Shown here piece after piece: positions 11,440 to 49,549 of a stretch of DNA of 64,000 nt. A program made the position numbers and the translations under genes. Below the pieces are notes generated by a model. That model searched no databases. It saw nothing but the letters and a program-made list of their open reading frames with translations, and was not told the origin of the DNA. The DNA is from Cellulomonas gelida (GTDB lineage Bacteria; Actinomycetota; Actinomycetes; Actinomycetales; Cellulomonadaceae), in contig NZ_BJLQ01000011.1 in assembly GCF_006538725.1 (NCBI RefSeq), positions 1 to 64,000 on the forward strand, written 5' to 3'. Numbering within the stretch: position 1 is the first letter of the stretch; every line of letters starts with the position of its first letter.

Positions 11440-11785
11440 CCGGGCATCTCCGTTTCTCGGCTGCCGGACGCCGGGGACGGGTCGGGCAGCGTAGGTCACC
11501 GGCGGAGTCAGGGGGACATCCGCCGGACGCGATCCGACCGACTTCGCGCGACGTTGCGGGAAGCGGGTCGGTCAGAGCAGTGGTGACGGGCACCGGTTCG
11601 CAGCGCCCGCGACGCACGCCTCCACGTCGAGGCGCAATGTCCGTTGACTCGTGTCACCAGCGCTATGGCCAGATTGCTGCCGGGGGCGCCTGATGTCAAG
11701 CGGAACGGTCTGGCACCTGCTCGGACGCGCACGTGCGGGCGGTCGTTGGGGCCTTGTCCGGACCCGTGGGGCTCCGTGGGCCAAG
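11440..11785. other. divergent promoter region, GH81 glucanase / tyrosine phosphatase
   Basis: The gap has about 346 bases and no credible gene. A TACGCT -10-like box lies some 60 bases before the glucanase start on the - strand. Nothing similar to the lacI-type operator at 7378 is present. No hairpin of note was seen. Confidence 0.4.
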
Positions 11786-12304
11786 ATGACGGGCGTGACC
11801 TACCGCGTGATGACCGTGTGCACCGGGAACATCTGCCGCTCGCCCATGGCGGAGATCGTGCTGCGTGCGCGCCTCGAGGAGGCCGGGTTGGCCGACGAGG
11901 TCGTCGTCGACTCCTCGGGCGTGTCCGACGAGGAGCACGGCAACCCCGTCGACCGCCGCGCGCGGGCGGTGCTCGCTGCGCACGGCTATCCGACCGGCGA
12001 CGGGCACCACGCGCACCGGATCACCGCGACCGAGCTGAGCACGCGCGACCTGATCCTGCCCGCGACCGCGCAGCACGCCCGCACGCTGCGCCGCATGGCC
12101 CCCGCCGAGGTGGCCGACCGGATCGTCATGCTGCGCCGCTTCGACCCGGCCGCGCCGGTCGTCGGCCCCGGCGAGCCCGAGCACGTGCTCGACATCGACG
12201 ACCCCTGGTACGGCGGCATGCAGGACTTCGAGGACTGCCTCACCCAGATCGAGGCCGCCACCGCGGGCGTCGTCGCCCACCTCCGCGCCACCCTCCACCC
12301 CTGA
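11786..12304 (+). CDS. low-molecular-weight protein-tyrosine phosphatase
   Basis: This 172-residue cytoplasmic phosphatase has the P-loop CTGNICRSP near the N terminus, giving nucleophile Cys12 and Arg18 of the C(X)5R motif. The general-acid Asp lies in IDDPWYGG (Asp138/139). Size and layout match the LMW-PTP family (about 150-170). Bacterial members act on phosphotyrosine proteins, often partners of polysaccharide-synthesis kinases, or serve in stress signalling. No BY-kinase is adjacent, so the partner is unknown. ATG at 11786 is chosen because it places the catalytic loop at the normal distance; a GTG three codons later is an alternative. The gene is transcribed singly. Confidence 0.92.
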   Translation: MTGVTYRVMTVCTGNICRSPMAEIVLRARLEEAGLADEVVVDSSGVSDEEHGNPVDRRARAVLAAHGYPTGDGHHAHRITATELSTRDLILPATAQHARTLRRMAPAEVADRIVMLRRFDPAAPVVGPGEPEHVLDIDDPWYGGMQDFEDCLTQIEAATAGVVAHLRATLHP

Positions 12305-12390
12305 CCCCACCCACCCCCACCCACCCCCTCCTGCTCCGCCGCGCCGCGGCCCCACCTGCCCTGCCCACCCCCGCCCCCCGCCGCGAGCCC

Positions 12391-12463
12391 GGTGGGTGCA
12401 GGGATGAATGCAGGGGAGGTGCCGTTCCAGGTGGTGTGATCTGCATTCATCCCTGCACTCACC
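12391..12463. repeat. palindrome family B, copy 1
   Basis: Arms of 23 bp with one mismatch (12391-12413, core GCAGGGATGAATGCAGG; and 12441-12463, core CCTGCATTCATCCCTGC) surround a 27-base spacer. It lies in the gap between the phosphatase and aminotransferase genes. A second, more diverged copy lies at 15692-15752. Confidence 0.8.
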
Positions 12464-12520
12464 GCGCGGTGAGTGGCGTGCTGCGCGGTGAGGGGAGTGC
12501 TGCGCGGTGGGTGGCGTGCC
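12464..12520. repeat. three tandem 19-bp direct repeats
   Basis: Units at 12464-12482, 12483-12501 and 12502-12520 all begin GCGCGGTG and end GTGCY, with up to three differences between units. They abut palindrome family B and lie just before the aminotransferase start. Confidence 0.7.
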
Positions 12521-12562
12521 CGTGGCGGGATCGTCGGGTGGGGGGTGGTGGGGGCGGGCAGG

Positions 12563-13747
12563 ATGGGGGGCGTGAAGGTTGCTGCTCGCGCGCATGTGCC
12601 GCCGTTCGCCGTCATGGAGATCATCGCCGCCGCCAACGCCCGGCGGGCGGCGGGGGAGGACGTGCTCAACCTGTGCGCGGGCGAACCCGCCACCGGGGCG
12701 TCCGACGTGGTGCGGCAGCGCGCGATCGAGCTGCTGACCAGCGGGGACCTCGGCTACACCGAGGCGCTCGGGGCGCCCGGGCTGCGCGCCGCGATCGCCG
12801 CGCACTACGGCGACTGGTACGGCGTCGCGCTCGACCCCGCGCGCATCGCGGTGACGACGGGCTCGTCGGGCGGGTTCATGCTCGCGTTCCTCGCGGCGTT
12901 CGACGTGGGCGACCGCGTGGCGCTCGCCCGCCCCGGCTACCCGGCCTACACGAACATCCTCGCGGCGCTCGGCTGCGAGGTCGTCGAGCTCGCCGCCGGG
13001 CCGCAGACCCGGTTCCAGCCGACCGTCGCGATGCTCGAGGCGGCGCACGCGACGAAGCCGCTCGACGGGCTCGTCGTCGCCTCACCCGCGAACCCGACCG
13101 GGACCATGATCGACGCCGCCGAGCTCGAGGCCCTCGCCGACTGGTGCGGCGAGCACGGCGTGCGCCTGATCAGCGACGAGATCTACCACGGCATCACCTA
13201 CACCGACGCGAGGGTCGCGACCGCCGCGCGCTACCTCGGCTCGGGCGCCGTCGTGGTGAACTCGTTCTCCAAGTACTGGGCGATGACCGGGTGGCGCCTG
13301 GGCTGGCTCGTCCTGCCCGACGACCTCGTCGCGCCCGTCGACGCGCTCGCGGGCAACGTGGCGCTGTGCCCGCCCGCCCTCGCGCAGCACGCGGGCATCG
13401 CGGCGTTCTCGCCCGAGGGCATGGCCGCCGCACGCGAGAACGTCGAGCGGTACGCGGCCGCCCGCGCACTGCTGCTGTCGCGACTGCCCGAGCTCGGCTG
13501 GACCCACGTCGCCCCCGCCGACGGCGCGTTCTACCTGTACGGCGACGTGTCCGCGTCCGGGCTCGACTCGGTCACGTGGTGCGCGCGCCTGCTCGACGAG
13601 GCGGGCGTCGCCCTGACGCCCGGCACCGACTTCGACCCCGTCGACGGGTCGCGGTACGTGCGGCTGTCGTTCGCGTCGTCGGTCGAGGTGGTGCGCGCGG
13701 CGGTCGACCGGATCGTCGCGTGGCAGCGCACGCTGGCGACCGCGTGA
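12563..13747 (+). CDS. PLP-dependent aminotransferase, class I/II
   Basis: This 394-residue cytoplasmic fold-type I enzyme shows the PLP-binding signature NSFSKYWAMTGWRLGW with the Schiff-base Lys in SFSK. It also has the family landmarks GEPATG (N-terminal substrate loop), SPANPTGTM (Asn binding the cofactor) and ISDEIYHGI (Asp/Tyr contacts). Members transfer amino groups between aspartate, aromatic or branched-chain amino acids and 2-oxoglutarate; the specificity here is not clear. The start is ambiguous between ATG 12563 and GTG 12572. The longer frame back to 12473 translates the tandem repeats and is unlikely. The upstream gap has both palindrome B and 19-bp repeats, which may affect expression. 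Confidence 0.9.
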   Translation: MGGVKVAARAHVPPFAVMEIIAAANARRAAGEDVLNLCAGEPATGASDVVRQRAIELLTSGDLGYTEALGAPGLRAAIAAHYGDWYGVALDPARIAVTTGSSGGFMLAFLAAFDVGDRVALARPGYPAYTNILAALGCEVVELAAGPQTRFQPTVAMLEAAHATKPLDGLVVASPANPTGTMIDAAELEALADWCGEHGVRLISDEIYHGITYTDARVATAARYLGSGAVVVNSFSKYWAMTGWRLGWLVLPDDLVAPVDALAGNVALCPPALAQHAGIAAFSPEGMAAARENVERYAAARALLLSRLPELGWTHVAPADGAFYLYGDVSASGLDSVTWCARLLDEAGVALTPGTDFDPVDGSRYVRLSFASSVEVVRAAVDRIVAWQRTLATA

Positions 13748-13826
13748 GCCCGACGAACCGGGCACGTCCGCGGCCGCTCGGTCGTTGGTGTGGCGTCAGC
13801 AGCCCTCATCCCGTCAGGAGCGCGCC

Positions 13827-14255
13827 ATGAAGTGCCCCGTCGACCAGGCCGAGCTGGTCATGTCCGAGCGGCAGGGGGTCGAGATCGACTACTGCCCGAC
13901 CTGTCGCGGCGTGTGGCTCGACCGCGGCGAGCTGGACAAGATCCTCGACCGCGCCGCGGCGGTCTCGACACCCGGGGCACCGCCGGCGCCCGGTGCCGCT
14001 GCGACGCCGCCCCCCTACGGCACGCCGCCCGCAGGCGCCGAGCCTCGCCATGACGCACCCCGCTACGACGCTCCTCGCTACGACGCCCCCCGCCACGACG
14101 GCCCCCGGTACGACGAGCCGCGCTACGACGAGCGGCGGCGCGACGACGACCGCTCGCGCTACGGCTCGTCGGGCGACCCGCGGTACGACGACCCGCGCTA
14201 CCGGCGCAAGAAGAAGCGCGAGTCCTGGCTGGGCGACCTCCTCGACTTCGACTGA
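13827..14255 (+). CDS. zf-TFIIB-like zinc-ribbon protein with repetitive Arg/Tyr/Asp tail
   Basis: This 142-residue protein begins with a zinc ribbon (CPVDQAEL...DYCPTCRGVWLDRGELDKIL: Cys3, then CPTC, with the family's GVWLDRGEL helix). A Pro/Ala linker follows. Then comes a low-complexity tail with repeats of the form PRYDAPRYDAPRHDGPRYDEP, and a basic end (YRRKKKRESWLGDLLDF). ATG at 13827 is set by CAGGAGCGCGCC just upstream. The conserved WLGDLLDFD ending is common in this actinobacterial family and may be a docking motif. The role is unknown, probably nucleic-acid or protein binding. The tail is encoded by tandem 12-15 bp units and so may vary in length between strains. Confidence 0.85.
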   Translation: MKCPVDQAELVMSERQGVEIDYCPTCRGVWLDRGELDKILDRAAAVSTPGAPPAPGAAATPPPYGTPPAGAEPRHDAPRYDAPRYDAPRHDGPRYDEPRYDERRRDDDRSRYGSSGDPRYDDPRYRRKKKRESWLGDLLDFD

Positions 14256-14273
14256 CCCCAGCCACGACCGGCC

Positions 14274-14397
14274 ACCCAGCGCTTGCTCCGGCCACCGCCG
14301 CCCTTCCCCGGAGCAGTCGCTGGGTCGTCCGGGTTCCTGGGGTGACCCAGCGCTTGCTCCGGCTGACGGCGCCGAGACCCGGAGTAGTCGCTGGGTC
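14274..14397. repeat. REP-like palindrome family A, copies 2 and 3
   Basis: There are two adjacent copies, 14274-14326 and 14344-14397. In copy 3 the left arm GACCCAGCGCTTGCTCCGG pairs with a right arm ending CCGGAGTAGTCGCTGGGTC, giving 19-nt arms with three mismatches. They fill the gap between the zinc-ribbon gene and moeB. Confidence 0.85.
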
Positions 14398-14435
14398 GTC
14401 GGGGGTCGGGGGCGGGACGGTCGTAGGTTGGGGGG

Positions 14436-15656
14436 GTGGGGAACTCAGCGCTGGTGCAGCCGGGCGGAGAGCTGACCGCTGAGCAGATGGCGCGCAGCTC
14501 GCGGCACCTGCTCCTGCCGGGGATCGGGCTCGTCGGGCAGCGGCGGCTGCGCGCCGCGCGCGTGTGCGTGCTCGGTGCGGGCGGGCTCGGGGCGCCCGTG
14601 CTGCAGTACCTCGCCGCGGCGGGTGTCGGGACGCTCGGGATCGTCGACGACGACGAGGTCGACGTGTCCAACCTGCAGCGGCAGGTCATCCACGGCTCGT
14701 CGGACGTGGGCCGGCCCAAGGTGGACTCGGCCCGCGACGCGGTGCACCACCTCGACCCGAGCATCGTCGTCGTGCCGCACGCCGTCCGCCTGACCAGCGA
14801 CAACGCGCGCGAGATCCTCGGCGGGTACGACGTCGTCGTCGACGGGACGGACAACTTCCCCACGCGCTACCTCGTCTCCGACGCCGCCGCGGCGCTCGGC
14901 ATCCCCGTCGTGTGGGGGTCGGTGCTGCGGTTCGACGCGCAGGTGTCGGTGTTCTGGTCCGCGGCGCCGGGCGGCGGCGTGACGCTGCGCGACCTGTTCC
15001 CGGTCGAGCCCGGGCCCGACGAGGTGCCCTCGTGCGCCGAGGCCGGCGTGCTCGGGGCGCTGTGCGGGCAGGTCGGCTCGCTCATGGCGACCGAGGTGGT
15101 CAAGCTCGTGTGCGGGCTCGGCGAGCCGCTGCTGGGTCGCGTGCTGGTGCTCGACGCACTGCGCTCGCGCTGGACCGAGGTTCCACTCGCGCGGTCGTCG
15201 CGTCCGGGGGCCGACGCGGGGCGGGCCGACGCGCGGGACGAGGCGCCGACGGGGGAGCCGTCGCCGGCGGGCTCGTCGGTGCAGGTCCCGGCGCAGGCGC
15301 CCGTGCCGTCGCCGGTCTCGCCCGCGGACCGCGTGCCCCAGGTCAGCGCCGACGAGCTCGCGGCGCGGATCGCCGACGCGGCCGACGGTGTCGTCGTCGT
15401 GGACGTCCGTGAGCCGTACGAGATCGCCGCTGCACCGTTCCCGGGCGCGGTGCCCGTGCCGCTCGCGACGGTGCTCGACGGCTCCGCGCTGCACGACTGG
15501 TCGCACGGTCCGGCGGTCGTCGTGGTGTGCCATGCGGGTGCCCGCTCGCACGCCGCCGCGCAGGTGCTGCGCGCGGCAGGGATCGACGCGTCGAACCTCA
15601 CGGGCGGCATCGTCGCCTGGCTCTCCCACGCGCCGACGGCGACTTCCCACCGCTGA
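14436..15656 (+). CDS. moeB: MoeB/ThiF-type adenylyltransferase fused to rhodanese
   Basis: This 406-residue cytoplasmic enzyme adenylates and sulfurylates the C-terminal Gly-Gly of a ubiquitin-like sulfur carrier (here most likely MoaD, encoded downstream) for molybdopterin synthesis. Residues 1-250 are the E1-like domain: the ATP-binding loop VLGAGGLGAPVLQYLAAAGVG, the DNLQRQ-like SNLQRQ, DGTDNFPTRYLV, and Cys200 in PSCAEAGVLG. After a Ser/Pro-rich linker, residues about 300-400 are a rhodanese domain with active Cys365 in the loop CHAGARS, a sulfur donor fused in cis. The bacterial MoeB zinc CxxC pairs are not evident. The GTG start at 14436 sits just behind palindromes A. It probably leads the + strand Moco operon, 178 bases before moeA. 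Confidence 0.93.
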   Translation: MGNSALVQPGGELTAEQMARSSRHLLLPGIGLVGQRRLRAARVCVLGAGGLGAPVLQYLAAAGVGTLGIVDDDEVDVSNLQRQVIHGSSDVGRPKVDSARDAVHHLDPSIVVVPHAVRLTSDNAREILGGYDVVVDGTDNFPTRYLVSDAAAALGIPVVWGSVLRFDAQVSVFWSAAPGGGVTLRDLFPVEPGPDEVPSCAEAGVLGALCGQVGSLMATEVVKLVCGLGEPLLGRVLVLDALRSRWTEVPLARSSRPGADAGRADARDEAPTGEPSPAGSSVQVPAQAPVPSPVSPADRVPQVSADELAARIADAADGVVVVDVREPYEIAAAPFPGAVPVPLATVLDGSALHDWSHGPAVVVVCHAGARSHAAAQVLRAAGIDASNLTGGIVAWLSHAPTATSHR

Positions 15657-15691
15657 CCCACCAGCCGGCGCCCCCGTCGTCGGGCGCTCGA

Positions 15692-15752
15692 TGCACGAAT
15701 GAATGCAGGACGGATGCCTCTGCGCTGCGCGCACCCTGCATCCATCGCTGCA
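15692..15752. repeat. palindrome family B, copy 2
   Basis: The left arm TGCACGAATGAATGCAGG (15692-15709) and right arm CCTGCATCCATCGCTGCA (15735-15752) match at 14 of 18 positions. It shares the GAATGCAGG/CCTGCAT core with the copy at 12391-12463. It lies between moeB and moeA, where it could act as a weak terminator or a processing site. Confidence 0.65.
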
Positions 15753-15834
15753 CCGACGGGACGGCGGGGCGCGTGGTGCGGCGCACGGGGTGGGGCGGGC
15801 GTGGGAGCATCGGGCGACGACGAGAGGGGTACAC

Positions 15835-17175
15835 GTGCGGTCGCTCGACGAGCACCGGGCAGCGACGCTCGCGCTGGCGGCGCCGCTGCCGGCCATCGAG
15901 GTCCCGCTGCTCGACGCGCTGGGGCTCGTCCTCGCCGCCGACGTGACCACGCAGGCCGCGCTGCCGCGATGGGACAACTCCGCGATGGACGGGTACGCGG
16001 TCCGCGCGGCGGACGTCGCGGCGGCGGCCGTGGACGCGGGTGTCGTCCTGCGCGTGGTGGGTGACGTCGCGGCCGGCTCCGCCGACGAGCCCGAGGTCGC
16101 CCCGGGCACCGCGGTCCGGATCATGACCGGCGCACCGCTGCCCCCGGGCGCGGACGCCGTGGTCCCGGTCGAGCAGACCGCCGTGCCCGACGCGCCCGCC
16201 GGAGACCCGGCCGAGCCGCAGTGGGCCGACGGCGGCGGCGCGGGGCTCGTCGAGGTGCGTGCGGCGGTCGCGCCCGGCGCGCACGTGCGACGTGCCGGCG
16301 AGGACGCCGACGCGGGCGAGGCCGTGCTGCCGGCGGGCGCGCTCGTCGGCCCGACGCACCTCGCAGCCGCGGCGTCGGTCGGGCGCGCGACGCTCGTCGT
16401 GCACCGTCGGCCGCGCATCGCGGTGATCTCGACCGGCGACGAGCTCGTCGAGCCCGGCGCCGAGCTGCGGCGCGGTCAGATCCCCGACTCCAACTCCTGG
16501 CTGCTCGCTGCCGCGGTGCTGGACGCGGGCGCCGAGCCGCTGCGCCTCGGCCCTGTCGCCGACGACCCCGCCGCCCTGCACCGACTGCTCGTCGGCCTCG
16601 ACGCCGGTGAGCACGGGACGGTCGACGGCATCGTGACCTCGGGCGGTGTGAGCGTCGGGGCGTTCGACGTGGTCAAGGCCGCGCTCGCCGACGAGCGGGG
16701 CGTCGAGTTCGTGCGCGTCGCGGTGCAGCCGGGCAAGCCGCAGGGTCTCGGCCGGCTCCCGGGCGGCACCCCGATCTGGACGCTGCCGGGCAACCCCGTG
16801 AGCACGCACGCGTCGTTCGAGGTGTTCGTGCGGCCCGCGATCCGCCGCATGCTCGGCCTCGCCGACGTCGAGCGGCCGCGCACGCGCGTCGTCGTCGGCG
16901 AGGGCTGGCGCACCCCGCCCGCGCGCGCCCAGCTCATGCCGGTCCGCCGCGTGCCGTCCGACGAGGTGCCGGCCGACGACGTGCGGTCCGACGACGTGCG
17001 GTCCGACGACGTGTCGTCCGACGAGGGAGGCCTCCCGCGCGTCCGGCGCGCGACGGCGCGGGGCTCCGGCTCGCATCTCGTCGCGCGGCTCCCGCAGGCG
17101 CACGGACTGGCGATCGTGCCCGCCGACGTGGACGAGGTCCGCGCCGGCGACACCCTGGAGGTCTTCTGGACATGA
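15835..17175 (+). CDS. moeA: molybdopterin molybdenumtransferase
   Basis: This 446-residue cytoplasmic enzyme inserts molybdate into MPT-AMP, releasing AMP. The domain order is typical: a MoeA N-terminal domain (SLDEHRAATLALAAPLPAIEV, then PRWDNSAMDGYAVRAADV), IMTGAPLPPGADAVVPVE, a MogA-like MoCF domain (ISTGDELVEPG, DGIVTSGGVSVGAFDVVK, QPGKPQGLG, LPGNPVSTHASFEVFVRP) and a C-terminal beta domain. GTG at 15835 is chosen because GAGAGGGG precedes it and the longer frame would translate palindrome B. Around 16970-17030 the coding DNA has tandem 15-bp units giving DDVRSDDVRSDDVSSDE, an acidic insert within the C-terminal domain. Its stop overlaps the moaC start (ATGA), so translation is coupled. 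Confidence 0.95.
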   Translation: MRSLDEHRAATLALAAPLPAIEVPLLDALGLVLAADVTTQAALPRWDNSAMDGYAVRAADVAAAAVDAGVVLRVVGDVAAGSADEPEVAPGTAVRIMTGAPLPPGADAVVPVEQTAVPDAPAGDPAEPQWADGGGAGLVEVRAAVAPGAHVRRAGEDADAGEAVLPAGALVGPTHLAAAASVGRATLVVHRRPRIAVISTGDELVEPGAELRRGQIPDSNSWLLAAAVLDAGAEPLRLGPVADDPAALHRLLVGLDAGEHGTVDGIVTSGGVSVGAFDVVKAALADERGVEFVRVAVQPGKPQGLGRLPGGTPIWTLPGNPVSTHASFEVFVRPAIRRMLGLADVERPRTRVVVGEGWRTPPARAQLMPVRRVPSDEVPADDVRSDDVRSDDVSSDEGGLPRVRRATARGSGSHLVARLPQAHGLAIVPADVDEVRAGDTLEVFWT

Positions 17176-21006: not shown

Positions 21007-21068
21007 TGCCCCAGCGTCGTCGGCCGGTCCGGTCTCAGCGGCGGACAACTGAACACGCTGCTCGAACC

Positions 21069-21293
21069 GAGGCGGGAGAGTCCCGCAGGAGCGGGCGCCG
21101 AAGGAGCAACCCTCCCCGGGAATCTCTCAGGCCCCTGTACCGCCACGGCGAGGCAACTCTGGAAAGCGGCCGGCCCACCACGGGACGGCCCACCGACGGT
21201 GCAAGCCGGCGCGCCCCGGGCTGGATCGACAGCCATGGCGGACCGGCAAAACTCTCAGGTCGTCGCGCCACGCGACGGATGACAGAGCGGGGA
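21069..21293 (+). promoter_or_regulatory. tandem glycine riboswitch
   Basis: Two consecutive glycine aptamers lie in the leader of gcvP. Aptamer 1 (about 21069-21168) shows GGCGGGAGAGTCCCG, GCGCCGAAGGAGCAA, then CTCTCAGGC and ACTCTGGAAAG. Aptamer 2 (about 21185-21291) shows CGACGGTGCAAGCC, GGCAAAACTCTCAGGT and GACAGAGCGGGGAG. These conserved blocks are the hallmark of the gcvT RNA element. The gene downstream makes glycine-cleavage protein P, so ligand-induced expression is the expected response. The 46 bases between the element and the GTG contain the short G+C stems likely to form the expression platform. Confidence 0.95.
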
Positions 21294-32242: not shown

Positions 32243-32263
32243 GAGGTCTGCGACATGTCGACT

Positions 32264-32354
32264 CCATCGGTCCTGGCGGAAGCACCCACACCCTCGTCGC
32301 GGAGGGGGGTTGCTGCGGCGTCAACGAGCCAGGTCTCTCGGCCGCTCTGGATGG
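32264..32354 (-). promoter_or_regulatory. SAM (S-box type) riboswitch ahead of metF
   Basis: Read on the - strand the leader contains CCATCCAGAGCGGCCGAGAG, then ACCTGGCTCGTTGACGCC, GCAGCAACC, a hairpin, and GGTGCTTCC before GATGG. These are the conserved S-box blocks (AGAG...GAGGGA, GAcGCC, GCAACC, GGTGCtA.TTCC), and CCATC/GATGG closes P1. It lies 21 bases before the metF GTG, so in the ligand-bound state P1 could hide the start or end transcription. The TTGACGCC variant in place of TGAAACCC is usual in actinobacteria. Confidence 0.88.
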
Positions 32355-32370
32355 TTGTCGTGATCGTAGG

Positions 32371-33653: not shown

Positions 33654-33850
33654 GACCCAGTGTCTGCTCCGGCTTTGACGGTGGAATGCGCGAGTGGCCG
33701 CTGGGTCGTCGTCTTCCGGTCCGCGACCCAGCGTGTGCTCCGGCTCCGGCGGTGGAATGCGCGAGTAACCGCTGGGTCGTCGTCTTCCCAATCCGCGACC
33801 CAGCGTGTGCTCCGGCTTTGGCGGTGGGATGCGCGAGTAGGCGCTGGGTC
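33654..33850. repeat. REP-like palindrome family A, copies 4 to 6
   Basis: There are three copies in a row at 33654-33707, 33725-33778 and 33797-33850, each starting GACCCAG and ending CTGGGTC, with near-identical spacers. Copies 5 and 6 share the left arm GACCCAGCGTGTGCTCCGG. The block lies between hrpA and tag, both on the - strand. The rest of this 392-base gap (33507-33653) is a degenerate run of CGACCC-type triplets with no gene. Confidence 0.85.
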
Positions 33851-48148: not shown

Positions 48149-48420
48149 GACCCAGCGACTGCTCAGGCTCTGAGTCCTTGAGGCCTGAGCAGGTGCTGGT
48201 TCGTGCGGGTCTCGTGCTCGACCCAGCGGTTGCTCAGGCTCTGAGTCCGCGAGCCCGGAGCAGGTGCTGGGTCGCGTTCGATGCCCTGCGCGACCCAGTG
48301 GTTGCTCAGGTCTTGGCTCCTTGAGCCCGGAGCGACCGCTGGTTCGTCTCGGGGCTTGTGCGTGAGCCAGTGGTTGCTCGCGGTTGGCGGGCGGCGGGCC
48401 GGAGCAGCGAGTGCCGGGGG
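48149..48420. repeat. REP-like palindrome family A, copies 7 to 10
   Basis: There are four copies at 48149-48203, 48220-48273, 48292-48345 and 48364-48420. Copies 7 and 8 show compensating arms: CTCAGG in the left arm pairs with CCTGAG in the right in copy 7, where other copies have CTCCGG/CCGGAG. Copy 10 is degraded. The block lies in the divergent gap between the HNH gene and the GlpF-like gene. Confidence 0.85.
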
Positions 48421-49423: not shown

Positions 49424-49549
49424 CACCCAGCCTTCGCTCCGGCCTCCCCGGCTGAATGCCTGAGCAACCGCTGCGTCGCGTCGTCTCGTGGCGGTGAGCC
49501 AGTGGCTGCTCCGGGTATGAGGTCGAGATGCCTGAGCAGGCGCTGGGTC
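49424..49549. repeat. REP-like palindrome family A, copies 11 and 12
   Basis: Copies lie at 49424-49478 and 49495-49549. The right arm of the last is CCTGAGCAGGCGCTGGGTC, and its left arm is the variant GAGCCAGTGGCTGCTCCGG. They fill the convergent gap between the GlpF-like gene and the F420-type oxidoreductase, the last copy ending 5 bases before that gene's stop. Confidence 0.8.

Follow-up and report, generated by a model that had tools for sequence, protein, structure and literature searches.

Two palindromes belonging to one repeat family, here called family B, were analysed in a 64,000-nt stretch of Cellulomonas gelida DNA (assembly GCF_006538725.1, contig NZ_BJLQ01000011.1, positions 1 to 64,000), referred to as the window. 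The genome of the window, G000, is a 3.79-Mb draft assembly. The family B unit is ~71 bp long: two half-sites of 18 bases (TGCAGSGATGAATGCAGS), inverted relative to each other and each comprising about two 12-bp repeats, enclose a centre that is free in sequence and constant in length. Copy 1 was matched by model R1, which was built from 24 copies, at 12391-12463 (69.1 bits). Its left half-site (TGCAGGGATGAATGCAGG, 12397-12414, plus strand) has no mismatch to the family 18-mer and its right half-site (12440-12457, minus strand) has one, and the strandless variable centre between them (12415-12439) is 25 bp long, as in all ten copies of G000. The whole dyad of copy 1, also without strand, extends over 12387-12467, with two 27-nt arms (12387-12413 and 12441-12467) that are 93% complementary and lie 27 nt apart. 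Copy 2 was matched at 15686-15758 (65.7 bits, no strand), with a left half-site (TGCACGAATGAATGCAGG, 15692-15709, plus strand) and a right half-site (TGCAGCGATGGATGCAGG, 15735-15752, minus strand) that each have two mismatches to the family 18-mer, around a strandless centre (15710-15734) with a measured length of 25 bp. In the core of copy 2 (15692-15752), 14 of the 18 positions of the 18-nt arms are complementary and TGCA-N8-TGCAGG is retained. Neither copy was matched by Rfam at the gathering score.

Gene calls came from a simple script based on codon bias, and gene starts are thus approximate. The core of copy 1 begins 93 nt past the end of a low-molecular-weight protein-tyrosine phosphatase gene (11786-12304, plus strand; PF01451, E 9.5e-35) and is followed by an aminotransferase class I/II gene (12596-13747, plus strand, start approximate; PF00155, E 6.8e-60). 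The core of copy 2 begins 36 nt past the end of a MoeB-like gene with ThiF and rhodanese domains (14436-15656, plus strand; PF00899, E 6.3e-73; PF00581, E 2.5e-11) and is followed by a MoeA-like gene (15835-17175, plus strand, start approximate; PF03453, PF00994 and PF03454). The aminotransferase-to-moeB region was matched in 81/81 genomes of the genus, and the model found no family B copy, at E up to 1, in the orthologous stretch of the ten relatives fetched. The flanking of this region by the two palindromes, to which the sequence-only reading had drawn attention, therefore looks coincidental, and copies 1 and 2 do not bracket a unit. Other features of the window include three tandem copies of a G-rich 19-nt repeat immediately past copy 1 (12464-12520), a 15-nt coding tandem repeat (14036-14155) inside a TFIIB-type zinc ribbon gene between the aminotransferase gene and moeB, and Rfam matches to Ms_IGR-5 sRNA (207-445), a glycine riboswitch (21063-21152) and a SAM riboswitch (32261-32357).

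High G+C DNA yields many weak palindromes, which would favour an artefact of chance or composition. Shuffles and a reversed control refute this explanation, to which we assign virtually no probability. The 16-mer TGCAGGGATGAATGCA was found four times in the window at ≤3 mismatches, at both arms of both copies, compared with a mean of 0.08 and a maximum of 2 in shuffled windows (0/100 shuffles reached 4), and a loose two-arm pattern at ≤3 mismatches gave two matches compared with a shuffled mean of 0.01. In the whole of G000, the family 18-mer at ≤3 mismatches gave 19 matches and the reversed control gave none. All 19 matches sit at ten places, at each of which an inverted partner (≤4 mismatches) completes a core of exactly 61 bp. 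The arms, the shared core and the shuffle and genome counts confirm the assignment of the palindromes at 12391-12463 and 15692-15752 to one family. The prospect raised with that assignment, that only these two copies exist and relatives have none, does not hold: there are ten copies in G000, eight more clear carriers in the genus and one metagenome-assembled genome (MAG) of the Actinomycetales with the family. One further G000 match of the model (C23:46771), without proper half-sites and of unusual length, was left out of the context table. The half-site consensus of 16 copies (10 from G000, 5 from G031 and 1 from G076) is gTCGrTGCAGSGATGAATGCAGSnnnnGTGC, in which TGC boxes stand at 1, 13 and 24. 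One place in G000 (C26) has an additional 12-bp repeat outside the core. The centres of the G000 copies are no more alike than their flanks (mean identity 0.37 versus 0.39).

Because the first fetches were made with fixed-spacing patterns, the spacing was re-measured with one half-site alone in four genomes (130 half-sites, 35 pairs). All inward-facing pairs within 120 bp had an offset of 43 in G000 (7/7), G031 (2/2) and G058 (4/4), 13/13 in total, and an offset of 42 in G008 (22/22); the partner of many half-sites was too diverged to match the exact pattern. A free-spacing scan of the fetched loci gave 61 bp in G000 (10/10), G031 (5/5), G076 (1/1), G058 (15/16), G047 (3/3), G019 (1/1), G033 (1/1) and the MAG (4/4), and instead 60 bp in 62/62 copies of G008. 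The exceptions were 12 bp longer, namely one G058 copy and one of the two G030 copies (60 and 72 bp), and some model matches in G033 and G047 are 11 bp longer. The half-sites left without a partner in the free-spacing scan numbered two in G000, seven in G008, one in G058 and one in G047. A constant spacing around a free centre, with longer variants that differ by 12 bp, is also what would be expected of host DNA-binding sites, in which a chromosome-architecture or regulatory protein would bind the paired half-sites as duplex, and fixed sites would drift with the protein. We consider this explanation unlikely, although it is the most credible of the alternatives, and return to it below.

The strict two-arm pattern was found in 3/81 genomes of the genus. 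Model R1 at E 0.01 matched 22/81, of which nine were counted as clear carriers (G000, G008, G019, G030, G031, G033, G047, G058 and G076); the 13 others, with 1-5 weak matches each, were not. At E 1e-5 the model matched 10/221 genomes of the taxonomic family, all from one genus, and one of these ten (G072) has a single match and was not counted as a carrier. A second G076 match (C37) was excluded from the context table. A looser exact pattern searched through the GTDB species collection gave 21 stretches: five in Cellulomonas sp. JH27-2, three in C. persica, one in C. uda, four in the Actinomycetales MAG and eight single matches elsewhere. Those eight, outside Cellulomonas and the MAG, were judged from their sequence to be chance, as was one match in a viral contig (L054). 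Copy 1 had no match among plasmids. Going by titles and abstract openings in a limited literature search, no published description of family B was found. As a separate observation on G000 and G076, one stretch (L016 1383-3018 against L021; C36 and C60, respectively) is 99.1% identical over 1637 bp, compared with ~85% around the window aminotransferase gene, which may reflect recent exchange or assembly contamination.

Units are found in near-identical form at unrelated sites. The best copy pair in each of the MAG, G058 and G047 shares 23/25 centre positions and only 15-17/50 flank positions, and in the MAG pair the similarity stops, at either end, no more than a few bases from the unit. Whole units have therefore been copied to unrelated sites. 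In G008, the eight loci inspected contain local arrays of 4-8 units, and the DNA between the units is often repeated too. The copying of whole units, centres included, and the tandem arrays in G008 speak against host-protein binding sites that stay in place.

Copies also persist in place. Eleven copy pairs lie between orthologous neighbours in two species, with average identities, gaps being scored as mismatches, of 80% in the arms, 65% in the centres and 39% in the adjoining intergenic DNA, and without a gap or indel within any unit. Seven of these are G033/G047 pairs. Their centres are 0.68-0.92 identical, more than in copies at non-orthologous sites (mean 0.48, sd 0.13), and judged by this difference the seven are inherited; loci of the longer sub-type (L177, L195 and L196) did not enter this comparison or the tests below of arm pairing in G047, G033 and G019 and of single-arm folding. 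The centres of the four more distant pairs are not above the non-orthologous level, and these copies may have arrived independently. Such persistence, together with the near-constant spacing, may point to duplex sites bound by a host protein. Other sites recur, unaligned, in several species, such as one with the NAD synthase gene nadE, an AbiEi-like gene (nadE and AbiEi_4 being Pfam matches) and glnA, and another with eno and a PadR-like gene; the identities of glnA, eno and PadR are those that we presume from the protein sequences.

We examined the location of family B in 97 sites, in which each G008 array was counted as one and orthologous sites were counted per species. Forty-eight sites lie between tandem genes, 30 between convergent genes and 11 between divergent genes, and eight lie at contig edges. 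No site midpoint (0/97) fell inside a called gene, and a gene end was overlapped by 3-15 nt at three sites. In 42 of the 48 tandem gaps the element is nearer to the upstream stop (median 57 nt, versus 127.5 nt to the next start). By comparison, gaps of ≥71 bp without an element, taken from these loci and from the ten moeB loci, were 58 tandem, 10 convergent and 33 divergent. Family B is thus intergenic, with an excess of copies in convergent gaps and close to upstream stops. The 30/97 sites between convergent genes do not favour host DNA-binding sites. No gene family was common to the neighbours: the 102 of 182 neighbour proteins that were scanned matched 143 Pfam families, and the commonest, MarR_2, occurred in five. 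A transcription-factor operator in the promoters of a coherent gene set was rejected on the basis of this diversity and of the 30 convergent versus 11 divergent sites. Genes related to AbiEi were observed near some copies. In G058 (L150), two family B copies flank a gene that matches AbiEi_4 weakly, as is apparently also the case in G000 across a contig break (L209/L208, C34 and C14), and AbiEi-related genes adjoin copies in G019 and G008.

The position near upstream stops and the convergent enrichment would also suit RNA hairpins at gene ends, acting as terminators or as stabilisers of mRNA 3' ends. Folding is consistent with this for some copies: copy 1 RNA folds at -55 kcal/mol (z -7.84), and a hairpin z below -3 was obtained for most copies of G058 (14/16) and for all loci of G008 (18/18), as well as for 3/4 in the MAG, 20/31 in G033 and G047 together, 6/10 in G000 and 1/5 in G031. 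Copy 2, however, folds no better than shuffles (z -0.63), and z was above -3 in 4/10 G000 and 4/5 G031 copies. Moreover, no T-run was found at any of the 107 copies listed (a total that includes two G030 copies twice), no terminator-like site was found within 11500-16500, sequence and length are conserved beyond the needs of a stem, and 11 sites are divergent. We regard RNA hairpins at gene ends as doubtful, and as less probable than duplex sites. The retention of half-sites in copy 2 and other copies that fold no better than shuffles is in line with binding of duplex DNA.

Each carrier genome has its own arm version. Arm positions 8-12 are mostly ATGAA or ATGGA in G000, ATGGT in G058 and ATGGG or ATGGA in G008, and are mixed in G033 and G047. 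We compared the pairing of arms within copies with that between copies in eight genomes, leaving out L204 and L205 from the pairing test of G047, G033 and G019 and from the test of single-arm folding. Within-copy pairing was above between-copy pairing in G058 (225/270 versus 214.5, p 0.009, an effect that is absent with five copies alone), G047 (169/216 versus 156.6), G033 (205/270 versus 187.3) and G019 (91/126 versus 83.6). In half of the genomes tested (4/8), therefore, either the pairing of arms is favoured or the palindromes undergo correction, which does not agree with simple duplex sites. With all species pooled, standard pairs made up 81.6%, compared with 79.4% in shuffles (4/500), an excess that joint change of the two arms from species to species would equally produce. 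Single arms folded into at least six pairs in 2/20 cases in G000, 3/10 in G031, 1/8 in the MAG and 17/32 in G058.

A classical miniature inverted-repeat transposable element (MITE), that is, joined inverted transposon ends moved by a transposase with target duplication, would account for a short interior enclosed by inverted ends and for the copying of a discrete unit. A search for target duplication was carried out in four sets, with ~100 width and offset combinations each, and none stood out (best z 3.2). No unpaired arm was found at ≤3 mismatches in draft G000, and nothing in that assembly thus points to a longer element that carries such ends. On these results we hold a classical MITE to be very improbable.

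Taken together, half-sites and unit length are conserved around a variable centre, the arms are genome-specific and the copies lie mostly behind genes. We consider family B to be a mobile palindrome family that resembles REPINs, the doublets of repetitive extragenic palindromic sequences (REPs), without the REP-associated tyrosine transposase (RAYT), and that is read by a putative trans-acting factor; we put the probability of this reading at roughly 60%. It is supported by the copying of units, the fixed spacing, the genome-specific arms, the arm pairing and hairpins in some genomes, the intergenic convergent bias and the likeness to REPINs. A putative trans-acting protein would recognise both ends, as duplex or as folded hairpin, and the same protein would copy the unit to new places. 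The arms and the spacing would consequently be selected in an active lineage and would track the protein as it evolves. Copies would survive downstream of genes, where they may be least harmful or may be useful.

Several results weigh against this reading. A Y1/RAYT gene (Y1_Tnp, PF01797) was found in 0/9 carriers, whereas control genomes were positive in 5/14; the MAG was outside this set. The best G000 copy pair shares only 14/25 centre positions, and thus no recent movement seems to have occurred there. Within-copy arm pairing was not above between-copy pairing in G000 (150/180 versus 151.8), G031 (71/90 versus 73.4), the MAG (63/72 versus 61.7) and G008 (273/324 versus 272.8, one copy per locus), and this absence of compensation in four genomes is a further argument for sites on duplex DNA bound by a putative host protein. 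The retention of units at orthologous sites after divergence of the flanks suggests host-level selection as well. No exact 71-bp empty site was found in the six relatives that were aligned in part, whose intergenic DNA is too diverged. One G047 copy (L154) is missing at the orthologous G033 site (L215), but the difference exceeds the unit in size and has similar short sequences at its borders, and it may be either an insertion or a deletion.

As a wider and speculative proposal, which we hold to be unlikely as a whole, family B may represent a RAYT-independent repeat system of Actinobacteria. A putative protein would read paired half-sites at an exact spacing, spread the unit and also use resident copies, the arms would track the protein genome-wide, and family B and the other palindrome family of G000 (family A) would represent two systems of this kind that differ in specificity. 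RAYT transposases account for REPINs, whereas for other families of palindromes no mover is known. Compact and nearly constant in spacing, with arms particular to each genome, copy events that can be seen and copies that persist in place, family B offers a clean case in which to look for a recognition protein and to tell selfish spread from use by the host. That one genome holds two families of this shape is a further advantage.

Among known systems, family B resembles MITEs as a short non-coding unit with inverted ends that is copied, and differs in that neither a target duplication nor a parent transposon was found, G000 being a draft. It shares with the CGTC-tagged REPs described in PMC3733652 the lack of a known dedicated transposase and a placement chiefly in gaps between co-directional or convergent genes, past the coding regions, a position reported there for REPs. 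However, those REPs have stems of 8-9 bp, loops of 4-5 bp and an unpaired tag at one end, whereas family B has arms of 18-23 nt and symmetrical ends with TCG/CGA on both sides, and family B therefore does not qualify as a tagged short-stem REP. Passages of PMC3733652 name other phyla, and its main text contains 0 occurrences of 'Actinobacteria'. The closest parallel is with REPINs and REP doublets, which in the account of PMC3116915 consist of two ends and a spacer (71 bp in one family). As in family B, their short inverted conserved ends enclose a less conserved spacer of set length, and they are extragenic, dispersed, genome-specific and sometimes clustered. Unlike REPINs, family B is without a Y1/RAYT gene in the nine carriers. 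A REPIN end is itself an imperfect palindrome (a REP); of the family B arms, only 2/20 in G000, but 17/32 in G058, form at least six pairs alone. Family B is thus REPIN-like in its working and is not filed as a REPIN, because RAYT was sought and not found. Of the REP-like character proposed in the sequence-only reading, a second dispersed family with REP/REPIN-like architecture and location stands, and the suggested association with transposases is not supported, given the lack of both a Y1/RAYT gene in the nine carriers and a common family among the neighbour proteins scanned.

The comparison extends to the other palindromes of these genomes. Family A (CCCAGCGNNTGCTCCGG-N16-inverse) occurs in the window at 14274-14396, 33656-33815, 48151-48343 and 49426-49547. 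It gave 52 matches in G000 at ≤3 mismatches, some of them in arrays at 71-72 bp; the spacing within the family A pattern was set by the search. The fixed-spacing search also found it in G030 (6), G076 (3), G019 (1) and G031 (1), and the version in G030 and G076 is a CCCCGCG variant. Many copies of a third and apparently unrelated palindrome family (GGGTGTGCGACACGCCG...CGGCGTGT/CGCACACCC) were observed in G033 and G047, often beside family B (e.g., L155 ~1525-1595). The proposal that family B is a second family, unlike family A and of the same layout, is confirmed: the two have no sequence similarity, both consist of inverted arms around a variable centre, and family A, like family B, has a genome-specific arm version, in G030.

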